Source: Amanita rubescens (Eukaryota > Basidiomycota > Agaricomycetes > Agaricales > Amanitaceae). From it: a stretch of 64,000 bases of DNA. Positions 30,312 to 53,760 of this stretch are shown piece by piece. Made by a program: the position numbers and the translations under genes. Location of the stretch: contig WION01000005.1 in NCBI GenBank assembly GCA_015039365.1, positions 1,054,001 through 1,118,000 of the forward strand, given 5' to 3'. Numbering within the stretch: position 1 is the first letter of the stretch; every line of letters begins with the position of its first letter. The notes beneath the pieces were generated by a model that was not told the DNA's origin, did not search any database, and saw only the letters and a program-made list of their open reading frames with translations.

Positions 30312-32013
30312 CTACGAACGATTGTCTGGTAGCGCAATCGAGGCAGCTGGGGGACTTGACACGTTTATATTAGGGGCTGGCCCAATCAGCCGCAGCAACA
30401 ACTCCATCCGTCGCTGCTGGTCAAGGACTTGCTGTTTCAACTCGTCTTGTTCTTCCTTCATCCTGCGCTCTTTCTCGTCTTGTGCTTTCTTCATCCTGCG
30501 CTCTTTCTCGTCTTGTTCTTTCTTCATCCTGCGCTCTTTCTCGTCTTGTTCTTTCTTCATCCTGCGCTCTTTCTCCTCTTGTTCTTCCTTCATCCTGCGT
30601 TCTTTCTCCTCTTGTTCTTCCTTCATCCTGCGTTCTTTCTCCTCTTGTTCTTTCTTCATCCTGCGCTCTTTCTCCTCTTGTTCTTTCCTTAGCTGACTCC
30701 TCAACCGCTGTTCATTCACCTCTTGCTCTTTCTTCAGCTCCTTCCTAAGTCGCCGTTCCCTCTCCTCCTGCTCCCTCCTGAGCCGTCGCTCTCTCTCCTC
30801 CTGATCCTTCTTCAACTGCTGCTCTTTCTCCTCCTGCTCCTTCCTCATTCGTCGCTCCCTCTCCTCCTGATCCTTCTTCATTTGACTCGTCAGCTGTCGT
30901 TCCCTATCGTCTTGCTCCTTGGAAAACCTTTTTCGAATTTCCTCTTTACTTCTCCACTCATACTCCGCACGCTAGCGATCTCTGTCAACGCCGCGGAAAT
31001 GATGATACGAGAATTCGAACCTTTTCCTCCATCAAGCGCCTCCCCTTCATAAAATTGTCCCATATTCTCTGCACTTGATTTGGATCCCTCCGGTAAACTG
31101 GAAAGATTTTAAAGCTCCCCGTCGAAGCCTGGCGCCATTTCCTATCTCCTATTGTAGAAAGGGTGCCGTTATCGTGTTCTTGAGCCCACATTTCCAGGGT
31201 CGCAAAAACGGTATCTGCATGCCAGTAGCATTGACTGGCGAGTATCGAGTATATGTCACTTTCATTATACAGGACGTCAACCAGGACCATGAGGTCGCAA
31301 AGGTTCGGACGCTGGGTAGGATCGCCACTGAGCGTAAGGGTTTTGAGAAGCAGAGCATTCTTCGGGTGGCTCTCTATCCTGGTTACGGCATCCGCAGCGA
31401 GGTGCTGTTGCAAACTAATGCCAGAAGAGCGAGGTAGGGAGCTCTGCGATAAGCGGTGTGTCTTGTGCTCGAGGGAAGCGGAACTTTTAGTCATGCGCGC
31501 CTTCAACGACGAAACGGATTTTGCTAATAGCGAACCACGGGGAGAACTGCGAGAGGAACCGCCTGAAGAACCGATATGCGACTGGGCCACAGAAGATCGG
31601 GTAGCACTGGTACTCGCCGTCCCTGTCGACGACGGTACTGAGCTCATCGAATCGCTATCCTTGCGTTCGCCTGCTGATCGATCAAATCTCAGCTCTAGTT
31701 TGCCGTTCTCCTTGCTGGAGAACTCGCAGATGACGTATTCGTGCTCGTTCATGGTACCCTTCTCTTTGACATGATGCGCCTTGTCCAGTCGATAACCATT
31801 CAGTTCCTCCCATATCTCGACGCTTTCTGAATCCCAGGGTCGTATGCCCATATGGACGAGTCGGATCCACGACCTGACCGACATTTCTTCGCCAAGGGGA
31901 GGGAGGGATTTGGTACCGGCTGCGGTACCCAGAGAATTCATGATGGAAGCTGGGAGAACGGACGACATGAGGGCACGGAGGCGCTTCCGCTTGTTCTTGA
32001 AGATTGGCGGCAT
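30312..32013 (-). CDS. Basidiomycete hypothetical protein with C-terminal coiled-coil repeats
   Basis: Two exons (31021-32013 and 30312-30971, intron 49 nt) encode 550 residues. The N-terminal part has a conserved-looking globular region (SVRSWIRLVHMGIRPWDSE, YVICEFSSKENGKLELRFD), a Ser-rich linker, then TLSGDPTQRPNLCDLMVLVD ... QCYWHADTVFATLEMW. This CYWxADTV arrangement recurs in uncharacterised Agaricomycete proteins. The C-terminal 200 residues are almost pure charged heptad-like sequence built from imperfect 11-residue units such as KKEQDEKERRM, predicted to form a long coiled coil. It ends in a short hydrophobic segment (LLLRLIGPAP). Function unknown; the coiled coil suggests oligomerisation or scaffolding. 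Confidence 0.75.
30440..30700 (-). repeat. 33-bp in-frame tandem repeat coding for coiled coil
   Basis: About eight imperfect copies of a 33-bp unit encode the 11-residue repeats (KKEQDEKERRM and variants) of the coiled-coil gene. The repeats continue in more degenerate form to about 30890. Confidence 0.85.
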
Positions 32014-49026: not shown

Positions 49027-52000
49027 TCATTCAATCAGAAGGGGCTGTGGAGGTGATGGTATAACTTGGCAAAGCTGTAGTGGAGTATAAATACACACCA
49101 GGTCACATGCTGGGTGGGCAATTTGATCATACAGGAATGCAATCAGTCTCTGATGATCAGAAGGCATAGAACCAGCCCAGGTAATTTGGCTCTTCAGTTT
49201 CTCCACATAGCCTTGCTGTTTAAACTGGTACAAAGCATCTGCAACAGTTTTGTGGAATCGCTCTAATGTAGAAAATGATAGCTTGCAAATTATAATGGTT
49301 GCTTTGCTACATTAGCCAGGTATATGGATGAAATGAATATGAACTGTTACCAGCTAATATTTGGCAAGCTGGAGGCTAGCATAGCATTAGCTTTAATTGA
49401 GCATCATTGAAACAAACATAATTATTACTGTTACTGAGAATTTGGTAGATTTGCCTTCAATTCCATTTTGGAACAAAAATAACAGCTCTTCCTGATGGCA
49501 AGTAACAATGAGACTTGAAGTACATTTCATGCCAAGTGCACATACAGTCTTGCACATAAATTAGCATATCTATTGGGAACTGAAAGCAGCATCATACCAA
49601 CTAGTAGTTATATCAGAAATTTGGAAAGCGAGCCTTGTACACTAGCTTACTTTCTGATCAGAGTCATTTAGAATCTTGGACATCTCAGAAGCACAGTATC
49701 ACTCACTCCCTGTATGCCATGGGATAAGATGTGATGAAGATGGTGCAGTGGCACTCACCAGCTAAGATCATGGGAAGTGAGATGCGATGCAATTGCTTGT
49801 AAAACACCTAGAGCAAGGGCAATGTCACTCACACTCTGTTGGCCATGGGATCAGAACTGCAGAAATAGACAATGAATGAGGCATCACTCACCTCCTGTTT
49901 GTCATGGAATCAGATACATATATTGAGACTACATGTAAAATGCATTGTCACTCACATACTGTGGTTCATGGAATGAGACAAGTTGTGATATTTTGAGAGA
50001 CAATAGTGAAGTGCCTCACATGCTGTTGGTCATAGTATGAGATGTACTGTGACCAGCAAGAAAAGACAATACAGTGTTACTCACCTCCTGTTGGGCATGA
50101 GATGAGATGTTTTAAGTGCTGCTTGTTAAATAATGTCATGTTGTTCACTTTCTGTTTTTGGTGACACAGGATGTGCTGAGATCTGAGCCTGATCAAGGAT
50201 GGTACAGTCCCACTCACATCCTATTGGTTCATGCAGTGATGTATGAGATTACCACAGGAGAAGTACTGTGTCACCACTTACAATCTGTTGGGCATGTGAG
50301 ACATGCAAAGGCTGTTAGCAGTGTCACTATGTTACTCACATACTGTTGGTTGTGGATGAGGGAGTTGAGGGTGTCTGGAAAAGAAAGTGTAGTGTCCCTC
50401 ACATACTGGTGATCATGGGTGAGACATGATGAGACTATTGGAAAGAAGACAATGCTATGTCACTGACATTCTGTTGGTCATGGAAGGAGATATGAAGAGA
50501 TTGCCTGTAAAGAGACAGTGGTGTATTACTTACTTCCTGTTGGCCATGGTATGAGACATGTAGACATCATGATGCCTCTCAAACAACAGTGGGATGCCAC
50601 TCACACCCTATTGGTCATGGTATGAGATACTGTGGAGCTACATGAAAGAGACAATCAATGTCACTCACCCCTCCTTTGTCCTTGAATAAGATGTAGGGAT
50701 TGCCTGTAAAAATGACTGCCATGTCACTCACTTGAACCTGTTTATTGTGATATGAAATATGTTAAAGATGCTGGCAAAAGATAGTGAAATGCCACTCACT
50801 GTCTATATATTGTAATAGTATGACATGTGTTACATATATCTACATAGAAATAGTGCAGTGTCACTCACAACCTATTGGCCATGGCATAAAATGTGCTGAG
50901 ATGTGCATGAAAAGACAGTGCAGCATCACTCACTCCCTGTTGGTCATGACATAAGAGGCTTCCTGAAGGAGAGGACTCATTGTCACTCACCCCCTGTTGG
51001 TGAAGATGTGTTGAGATTATCAGCAAACAGATGGTAATGTTGCTCACAACCTGTTTATCATAGCATTGGAAACTGCTGACAACAGACATTGTAGTGCCAC
51101 CTACTGTCTATTGGTCATGAGATAGGGCATGTCATATGTAACTACCCAGAGACAACACATTGTCACATACAACCTGGTATGAGATCATGAAACCTTCCTG
51201 AAAAATGACAAGTGTAGTATTACTCACTCCCTGTTAGTCATGGGATGAAACATGATAAGATTGGGTTGAAAAAACAAGCATCACTTACATGCTGTTGTCC
51301 ATGGGGCATGATAAATAGAGATTGTGGGAAAAAACTTAAAAAGGCAGTGCAGTGCCTGTCACTTACTCTCTATATGGATTGTTATTGGGTGTCCAAAAGA
51401 TTTTATCACTCACTTCCTGTTGGTCATTTGATGAGATGTGTTGAGACTGTCTGAAAAAAGGCTGCAGGGTCATTTACCTGAAGCTTATCATAGTATGAGA
51501 TGTAGTGAGGCAGATTATTAAAGACAGTACAGTGTCACTCACTTTCTGTTAGTCAAGGATGGGGTGTAAGGGAGTTGCCTGGTAGAATACAGTGCATTGT
51601 CACACACTCCCTATTGGTCATAATTTAAATTTTTTCAATCTTGCTAGACAACAGACAGTGTGGTGTTGCTCACTTTCTGTCATTCATAGGATGGGGTGCA
51701 ATGAAGTACATGGAAAGAGATGTAATGTATCACTTACTTTCTGTTCATTGTGGCCCATGAATGAGATGAGATAGTGTCCAAGATGGATTACCTTACTCAC
51801 AATCTGTTGATTGTGAAATTATAGGACTGGTGGTCAGAAGCCAATACATTATCACTCACAGCCTATTGGTCAAGGGCAATGAGACTAGGAACAAGTAATA
51901 CTTTTCACTCACTTGCTAACAATCATAGGTTAAAATCTGTAACAAAGTGACAGTGTTACACACATTCTGTTGTTTATGAAATGGAGCATTATTAAACAGC

Positions 52001-53760
52001 CTGGCAGAAGATGTGTAGCATGACTTACTCTCTAGTAATGGGAGAAAATGTGATATGACTGCTATACACAGGCAAGTGTAACATTACCCACAAACTGTTG
52101 GATGTGTAGTGCAATGTGGTGAACTGTTTGAAAGGAAGAAGTGTAATGTCACTCACATCCTGCTTGTTATTGGATCACAGCTCATCAAAATCAAGACAAT
52201 AGTACTTCCCCATTCCTATCCATAGCATTAGATTCAGTAGCAGAAATATTTCTATGCTGACAAGTGCATTGATCTTTTGAAACAAAGATGATTGTCAAAA
52301 CCCATCCAGAAGAGATACAATGCCACATACATCCTGCTATTTGAGCAATCCAATTTGATAAATATTTGGTGATCAAATTCTTTGCATTAAAACTTACCCT
52401 TTTCAAATCGGTAACCTATTCACAACTCAGCTTCTGACATCAGCAATAAACAGTTGTCACTATACCCAGTAATGTGGAAACCTGCTAGCAACAATATAAA
52501 CAACATCTATGAATGTAAGTTCAATTTTTGAATTCAAGGTATATCTGGAGTCTGTCAAAGTTGGAAACTGGGACATTTAAAGTAAATCTCACTGAAGTGC
52601 TGCTTTGACACAAAGATGGAGGTTGTTCCTTTGTGTTGAAATGAACACTGCTTGTAAACTAGTATCATCAATTGCATTTGCAGTTTGCTCTGTCAATTCA
52701 GTGCAGTTCTTCTCTGCAATGTGCATATCTATTAAAATAGGTGTATCTCATGAGGACCATACAGTGTAAATGTCCATATCCTACCTTCCAGTTTCACATA
52801 TGCTTTTGGAGGATAGTTAGCTTTCAAGACTTTAGAAAGATAAACTTCTTTGAATGTGTTGTCAGCATTTGCCCTGGCCACATGCCATCTCTCCTCTACA
52901 TCATTCAATTTGACATATTCCTGGATTATTTGAGCATCAAATTTGGTGAATATGGTGATCAAAGGAACTATGGAGGCACCATTCATTAGTCAGTAAACAG
53001 GTTGTATTGGGTGGAATGCAAAAAAGTAGAATTTAATATTGCAAGTGCCTTACCATTCCCTGTCCCTTTGGTAAAGAACTCAAGCTCTGCAGATAGAAGA
53101 GGACGTGAGCCCTCCATAGGAATGCAATACCTGCAAAATCCAGCATTAGATCCCTTGTATGTATATGATGATTAATGCAAAGATACCAAATTGCATGCAA
53201 TTGGTCTTTCAACTTAGGTGCAGCAGATCTCTTCTCAATGAAATTCCAAACAGTCTCCATCTCCTCATTTGCACCAGCTTCAAAACCCTGAGAATCATGA
53301 AAGATGAAGTTGCTTCCAGGGTATGTGATCTGGTGCTCAATTTCATGTATTCCTCTCTGAAAGTTGGCAGCATATCAATATCTGGAGCCATTCATATTGT
53401 ATAATTAACTTGCCTGAGGTGATGGTTTTAAATGTGTATATGATGATTCTTGTGACATTTTCTTTCCCAAGACATGCTGAAATTTTGCAACAAGCTTGTT
53501 AGGTTTGTGGAGTATGCCACCCTTCTGATCATAGATGATGGGTTTAGTCCCCTGAGCTACTCCACAGACTTTCTCCAGAATGGTGGTCTTGCCAGCATTA
53601 GCCCTTCCTATGACAAGAATACGGAAGTGGGGACATTTGTAGTGGTCCTTGAGGAACCTGACATGTTCTGCATCTGCCTGCAAGTCAATTTAGGAGTTTG
53701 GACATAAAATGACTTACTTGATGCATTTACTGGCATATTGATGGTCTCCGAGTCAGTCAT
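49027..53760 (-). CDS. G-domain GTPase gene with 45 in-frame micro-exons
   Basis: Ordinary exons: 53718-53760, 53414-53673, 53187-53356, 53054-53130, 52785-52967, 52593-52728, 52466-52484, 52398-52415; then 45 micro-exons (next entry); then terminal exon 49027-49260. Total 1290 nt, 430 codons, no internal stop. The G domain is clear: LVIGRANAGKTTILEKV (P-loop G1), FIFHDSQGFEAG (G3 DxxG), FIEKRSAAPKLKDQLHAIW and ITIFTKFD (G4, TKxD). It belongs to the large fungal family of AIG1/septin-like G-domain proteins common in Agaricomycetes. Intron 2 uses a GC donor (CAG|GCAAGT). Exon 7 supplies RFPHYW. The terminal exon encodes 77 residues (RFHKTVADALYQFKQQGYVE onward) of unknown fold. The GTPase part is secure (about 0.85); its continuation through the micro-exons is inferred from splice signals and frame. 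The gene might instead stop shortly after exon 6. Confidence 0.65.
49351..52333 (-). repeat. Array of about 64-bp intron-like units flanking 45 micro-exons
   Basis: On the minus strand each unit ends ...CATGACCAACAG, then carries three variable bases, then GTGAGTGACA. Triplets (first base, + strand): 52331, 52157, 52092, 52029, 51964, 51913, 51860, 51801, 51738, 51674, 51608, 51543, 51414, 51367, 51289, 51228, 51171, 51105, 51048, 50991, 50934, 50869, 50800, 50605, 50534, 50468, 50403, 50340, 50282, 50218, 50149, 50085, 50020, 49956, 49892, 49833, 49759, 49707, 49651, 49598, 49546, 49351. Longer: 51478-51483, 50732-50737, 50669-50680. All 45 are followed by GT (26 GTGAG, 7 GTAAG, 4 GTATG, 2 GTGTG, six others) and preceded by AG. 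Spacing is mostly 52-78 bp; two gaps are about 171 and 192 bp. Seen by another eye this is a degenerate satellite. Confidence 0.85.

Follow-up and report, generated by a model that had tools for sequence, protein, structure and literature searches.

Predicted arrays of one-codon exons in a GTPase gene family of Amanita rubescens

A GTPase gene with a micro-exon array

The stretch of DNA analysed here (the window) comprises 64,000 nucleotides (nt) of contig WION01000005.1 from the basidiomycete Amanita rubescens, and carries on its minus strand a GTPase gene whose 3' half is predicted to consist largely of exons of a single codon. Seven ordinary exons are followed by 44 micro-exons, three further ordinary exons and a stop codon at 49027, giving a predicted product of about 488 residues and 53 introns (Table 1). 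The original prediction for this locus had placed 45 micro-exons, 42 of them a single codon, in the 3' half of the gene. A chain search that fixed the two ends and left exon lengths free recovered such a run, again mostly of one-codon exons, with the counts revised to 44 exons, of which 40 have 3 nt, between 45 introns. Their lengths sum to a multiple of three with 0 stops, in line with the claim that all intervals were multiples of three and added no stop. The presence of more than 50 introns likewise stands in the repaired model. The total of 430 codons does not: homology with intron-less JGI proteins shows that two ordinary exons had been overlooked and that the last exon begins at 49301.

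The introns of the window array measure 44 to 132 nt, mostly 44-75, with most near 60. Between 53800 and 49000 there are 45 sites of the form YAG-NNN-GT, a few of them overlapping or outside the array; they are a different set from the 45 intervals of the original prediction. The present model does not conflict with the proposed upstream part (exons to ...RFPHYW at 52466, probably VTDLKR at 52415-52398, then the codons D, D, F, R, N, Q), the first array exons being ambiguous: the array begins either with GAT (52333) and ATCAATGCACTT (52273) or with the VTDLKR exon. The exon 2 segment is read through in the paralogue protein P0002 and spliced earlier in the NCBI protein P0001. Homology links the final exons to the ends of P0020 and P0029, two of the intron-less JGI proteins.

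The motif GxANAGKTT, nearly invariant among 24 proteins, marks the family as P-loop GTPases. A Pfam search with five proteins gave nothing over the cut-off; the best value for MMR_HSR1 (PF01926) was 21.2 bits (P0001), the cut-off being 21.9, and a PDB search by sequence gave no match. A structure model of P0029 has a mean predicted local distance difference test score (pLDDT) of 76 and a helical C-terminal domain. Its array-encoded residues 328-373 fall mostly in a stretch with pLDDT <50 (315-359), which is followed by a helix (361-382), and the array likely encodes a variable linker that joins the G domain to the conserved C-terminal domain. Compared with the PDB, the model matched immunity-related GTPase, septin and dynamin-like G proteins with E values of 3.5e-5 to 1e-3 and overall template-modelling (TM) scores of 0.2-0.36. 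Mouse immunity-related GTPases appeared as the top folds (TM ~0.35), with septins next, which is a lead and not an assignment.

Table 1. Predicted exons of the window GTPase gene
Feature	Position	Strand	Remarks
Exon 1	53718..53760	-	Start codon 53760; N-terminus equals that of NCBI protein P0001
Exon 2, P-loop GRANAGKT	53414..53673	-	GC donor (GCAAGT) at end
Exon 3, G domain	53187..53356	-	
Exon 4, G domain	53054..53130	-	
Exon 5, G domain (TKFD)	52785..52967	-	
Exon 6, G-domain end (...VKAAL)	52593..52728	-	In-frame TGA at donor if unspliced
Exon 7, QYTLNSKIELTFIDVVYIVASRFPHYW, ends ...RFPHYW	52466..52544	-	Homology to P0020 and P0029
Possible small exon VTDLKR	52398..52415	-	Flanked by TAG and GTAAGT; homologues start V-x-R after HYW
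Micro-exon array, 44 exons	49598..52333	-	40 x 3 nt, 2 x 6, 2 x 12
Ordinary exon EELLFLFQNGIEGKSTKFSVT	49429..49491	-	Homology; absent from first model
Ordinary exon PPACQILA(A)	49351..49375	-	Homology; absent from first model
Terminal exon, TIIICKLSFSTLERFHKTVADALYQF...LLIE and stop	49027..49301	-	Homology to P0020; exon start 49301

Related arrays and their triplets

Related loci were searched for arrays without any frame rule, applying splice-site weights taken from the array of the window. Downstream of the G domain, arrays were found in 19 of the 20 loci fetched first, a set that includes an identical copy of the window gene (L009) and several loci nearly identical to one another. Five further GTPase loci (L030, L031, L033, L034 and L035) also carry them, L031 and L033 being scored by the YAG-NNN-GT count on the gene strand alone (42 and 34). 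What had been described as a single gene is instead a large family, in which 24 of the 25 GTPase loci examined have arrays; in L024, 70 three-base exons follow one another. L027 (C170:38500-46000), 99.8% identical to its haplotype partner L016 over 1131 bases, was considered as an array-less allele and rejected: in the fetched part the sequence departs from L016 at the array start, just past the donor site of array intron 1, as an insertion would cause. When 16 arrays were parsed in multiples of three with GC donors allowed, 781 of their 799 core exons had 3 nt and the others 6-15.

Genome-wide searches covered the 75.7-Mb assembly that contains the window, with duplicate contigs counted separately. 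The strict pattern CAACAG-NNN-GTGAGTGA occurs at 2177 sites, compared with 2 in a backwards control. With spacers of 0-15 allowed the count rises to 2252 (control 9), so that a spacer of exactly 3 nt accounts for 97%. A looser pattern with a recall of 422/622 gave 10,421 sites, compared with 3,009 in its control, which suggests some 11,000 three-base exons in the genome, duplicate contigs being counted apart; correcting the strict count for its recall (109/622) leads to an estimate of about 12,400. Apart from L029 and L032, the fetched arrays belong to the GTPase family of the window gene; L032, with 1.5 kb, is too short to tell. The fetched stretch of L029 (C3:124000-132000) contains about 80 one-codon units, some with GC donors, and strict sites go on to about C3:135643; no GTPase match was found in the 2.4 kb covered upstream of this array. 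The array pattern had no match in viral contigs. Elsewhere in the window, 33-base tandem repeats occupy 30441-30880 and are unrelated to the micro-exon array.

The triplets were compared with translated codons in 15 arrays, namely that of the window and those of 14 of the 20 first-fetched loci; L009, L011, L013, L020 and L022 were left out as near copies, as was L027. None of the 622 three-nt exons is a stop codon, where 34.4 would be expected from the base composition at each position. Stops are equally missing from the 781 three-base exons of the 16 arrays, and from all 799 core exons. NAA is the most frequent triplet class (GAA 68, CAA 52, AAA 38), with TAA at 0. Among the 2177 strict sites of the genome, NNN is TAA or TGA at 1, which equals the backwards control. 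Joining the codons of 17 arrays gave 0, 7 and 114 stops across the three frames, and stop avoidance persists in arrays whose introns have diverged. Because stops are avoided as in translated codons, the array triplets are taken to be codons. Triplets ending in C are very rare (0.5%), and NTA is avoided as well, a plausible reason being that NTA before G would create a second TAG acceptor.

The contigs behind several JGI proteins measure about 0.9-2.1 kb. Those of P0029 and P0017 are filled mostly by the coding sequence and are free even of the ordinary G-domain introns, as in complementary DNA (cDNA); being short and intron-free, the JGI contigs are presumably cDNA. P0029, with 478 residues on a contig of 1486 nt, aligns across the array of L015 when the aligner is given GT-AG and a flat intron cost alone. 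In the tail of this alignment 34 one-codon exons are used, 30 of them identical, and in 40 controls with a shuffled linker the identical codons averaged 5.5 with a maximum of 10. Once splice-site weights were added, L015 was the best of 17 loci for P0029, with 35 of 42 one-codon exons identical, and P0044 aligned to L023 through 38 one-codon exons, 25 of them identical. The proposal that the one-codon exons are coding is thus backed by stop avoidance, by arrays in 24 of 25 loci, by the conserved exons that flank them and by these alignments. P0126 and P0158, from short JGI contigs, are related more distantly; they too are intron-less, and their linkers are odd and of low complexity. As these linkers sit at a similar place, arrays may occur beyond Amanita.

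Young and old arrays

In 14 of 17 arrays the mean identity of an intron to its neighbours is 0.55-0.69, similar to that with random other introns, and in L021, L025 and L030 the introns are more alike (0.75-0.82). In L025 a single 62-nt intron is repeated with one mismatch over 24 counted copies, and between such near-identical introns stand codons such as CTT CAA CGA CGA GGA GAA. The genome holds 352 exact copies of this intron on several contigs, and none in a reversed control. L025, L034 and L035 represent the same gene in three copies, 98.7-99.5% identical over 2 kb upstream and 97.5-99.4% over 480 bases downstream, gapped columns being excluded (12, 136 and 146 upstream; 0-2 downstream). 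Their 57 young introns, counted without the 65-nt first and the 61-nt last copy of L025, show 2 mismatches in 3534 bases. The similarity among their codon series (24, 11 and 22 units) does not exceed that of shuffled series, with 279, 300 and 234 of 300 shuffles reaching the real score. Because so few intron changes accompany so many codon changes, point mutation is unable to supply the codon differences of these three loci.

Among intron pairs with at most one mismatch, the same codon is shared by 56/276 (20%) in L025 and 42/198 (21%) in L030, somewhat over the 12% and 11%, respectively, that the codon make-up of the whole arrays would predict. In the pair L021/L022 the introns are mostly 0-3 mismatches apart and 29 of 31 parsed units have equal codons, L022 being parsed as two stretches because its middle is interrupted. 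Fast codon mutation after the birth of an array, which was considered as a source of the variety, is not seen in these 31 units, and therefore the codons are not simply hypermutable. Tandem duplication of an intron together with its codon was rejected as the sole source in young arrays, where introns are identical and codons differ. It is partly real: as judged by eye, CAA AAA CTT is repeated in L030, and L037 (C79:251800-257200) contains a block of about 15 codon units (TTT ATG CRA GAA GAT GAT CGA CGA ...) twice. Runs of equal neighbouring codons occur, and most neighbours differ. L030 also has mosaic introns.

Spacers in five young arrays are 3 nt in 152 cases, 2 nt in 2 and 4 nt in 2. Odd-length, frame-shifting exons are present in the youngest arrays, with CAAT in L034 (C599) and CATT, CA and CA in L036 (C13); exons of 2 and 4 nt may be array-junction errors or assembly errors. 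The young arrays each use a small codon palette of their own. Frame +1 of L025 reads by eye as an acidic peptide, and an origin of young-array codons from another frame was considered. L021, L025 and L030 share a conserved array start, GAG TGG TTT GAA ...

Competing explanations and related systems

Taken together, these observations lead us to propose, at a probability of roughly 0.88, that the 44 predicted micro-exons of the window GTPase, 40 of them one-codon, are spliced into a linker, and that such arrays may consist of codon cassettes. As exon definition would hardly work for 3 nt, each intron of about 60 nt, with a donor GTGAGT or similar and a YAG acceptor, would be recognised singly by intron definition, and the array introns would be removed one after another. 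Skipping of a one-codon exon would cost one residue and keep the frame, because nearly all exons are a single phase-0 codon, and might be harmless or useful. Arrays would begin as near-identical intron copies with different codons between them, and the introns would then age by point mutation. Units could spread through segment duplication and recombination within the shared intron, the codon being an exchangeable cassette. In our reading, an array is assembled, or reassembled, from identical introns with varied codons and ages thereafter.

Several results weigh against this proposal. Parsed freely, 9 of the 799 core exons of the 16 arrays have lengths not divisible by three. The array is missing from P0001, the NCBI model of the gene in the window. 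The original prediction had suggested looking for the spliced product among proteins, and intron-less JGI proteins do match paralogue arrays; the array of the window itself aligns just partly to P0020 and P0029. The presumed cDNA status of the JGI contigs follows from their length and missing introns, and neither P0029 nor P0044 is the product of the locus it aligns to (L015 and L023, respectively), each being a relative. Five other proteins fit arrays less well, P0083 with 6 one-codon exons (3 identical), P0090 with 15 (10), P0046 with 20 (13), P0017 with 22 (13) and P0020 with 27 (13); this would be expected if their own genes lay outside the 17 loci tried, which is no proof. The codon differences beside unchanged introns are not explained by any demonstrated step. 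Finally, exon identity is about equal to intron identity between the window and L012 (0.791 vs 0.796) and is 0.477 vs 0.602 between L010 and L014.

These last two comparisons belong to a set of 13 overlapping paralogue pairs, two of them without a codon change. In the remaining 11, 149 aligned codons differ and 9 of these differences are synonymous. Exon identity in L018/L024 (0.942) is above intron identity (0.844), and in L021/L025 it is below (0.532 and 0.913), unrelated young parts being included. Because several pairs conserve their codons no better than their introns, purifying selection on the residues is not the general rule. Leaving aside stop avoidance and the conserved first part, the linker appears, from these comparisons, to be weakly constrained or diversifying, and the array-encoded stretch likely diversifies unusually fast.

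Could the array instead be a non-coding tandem repeat, lying within a single large intron or beyond the 3' end of the gene, with AG-NNN-GT as the repeat core? Introns of young arrays do share sequence and unit length, duplication alone could fix the 3-nt spacing, and the omission of the array from the NCBI model would fit. However, TAA and TGA are missing though AAA, CAA, GAA, AGA, CGA and GGA are frequent, the frame is kept in the window when exon lengths are left free (with the 9 exceptions elsewhere), and the array residues are present in order in intron-less proteins. A satellite or a single large intron was rejected on these three grounds, stop avoidance, frame and intron-less proteins, and we regard such a repeat as highly improbable. 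Hardly better placed is the idea that the JGI linkers stem from one ordinary exon elsewhere and that the A. rubescens arrays are later intron insertions, maybe misspliced. The JGI proteins are intron-less and come from outside this genome, and identical introns between different codons resemble insertion into existing sequence. Yet the JGI contigs also lack the ordinary G-domain introns, as cDNA would, and arrays with diverged introns still avoid stops. A genome search for contiguous copies of six array peptides, run without a positive control, came back empty. Moreover, L025, L034 and L035 have common flanks but unrelated codons and therefore no shared pre-existing exon, which contradicts the insertion of introns into one such exon.

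A third alternative accepts that the arrays are spliced and derives codon diversity solely from gene conversion that homogenises introns, together with selection that keeps codons different. Mosaic introns in L030, the identical 62-mer on several contigs and the scarcity of synonymous changes (9/149 in the 11 overlapping pairs) speak for it, but conversion tracts would need to halt repeatedly at a 3-nt exon, and L021/L022 show no rapid codon turnover; we consider it unlikely, if well ahead of the two preceding alternatives. Splicing of the array into a linker, our preferred reading, admits a further step that we advance tentatively, with somewhat more confidence than gene conversion as the only source of diversity. 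By analogy with immune receptors, the arrays might form a diversity-generating system: exchangeable one-codon cassettes would be carried by an invariant intron that copies itself, and the rebuilding of arrays would bring in new codons but leave the introns and the flanking gene parts unchanged, providing a repertoire of GTPase linkers.

Among known systems, exon lengths that are multiples of three are a mark of micro-exon genes (MEG) of the Schistosoma type. Consecutive short exons of this kind are found here, 781 of the 799 core exons having 3 nt and the others 6-15; the long introns of such genes are not, those of the window array being 44 to 132 nt. The MEG of Schistosoma mansoni have exons of 3-81 bp and encode secreted proteins (PMC10526429), and they resemble the present genes in being built of many tiny exons. 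Their exons are of mixed size and their introns reach 5 kb, unlike the near-uniform 3-nt exons, introns of about 60 nt and dozens of consecutive units in a GTPase gene of A. rubescens. Introners, or introner-like elements, occur in fungi and other eukaryotes and are described with target duplications of 3-9 bp (PMC9860276; PMC4457414). The arrays are like introners in their many near-identical intron copies (352 exact 62-mers), and unlike them in that the copies lie head to tail, 3 nt apart, within one gene family. Aphid bicycle genes have many small exons and are not known to contain one-codon arrays. This divergent family was recognised through gene structure (PMC9168663). That a one-codon exon can be spliced is known from a single 3-bp micro-exon of Drosophila homothorax, which is isolated between ordinary exons and not part of an array as in A. 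rubescens (PMC7392893). No report of arrays of one-codon exons was found in the open-access library searched, subscription papers and preprints being outside the search.

The public annotation (P0001) omits a stretch of the predicted product of the window gene, and probably of its relatives too. Frozen introns, with 2 substitutions in 3534 bases, beside unrelated codons call for a renewal of codons by means other than point mutation, and the series from identical to diverged introns lets the birth and ageing of introns be observed. If the arrays are spliced, they would offer a natural test bed for intron definition, for the smallest exon and for the spacing from a 3' splice site to the next 5' splice site, and A. 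rubescens would be a eukaryote that processes dozens of successive 3-nt exons in many genes.

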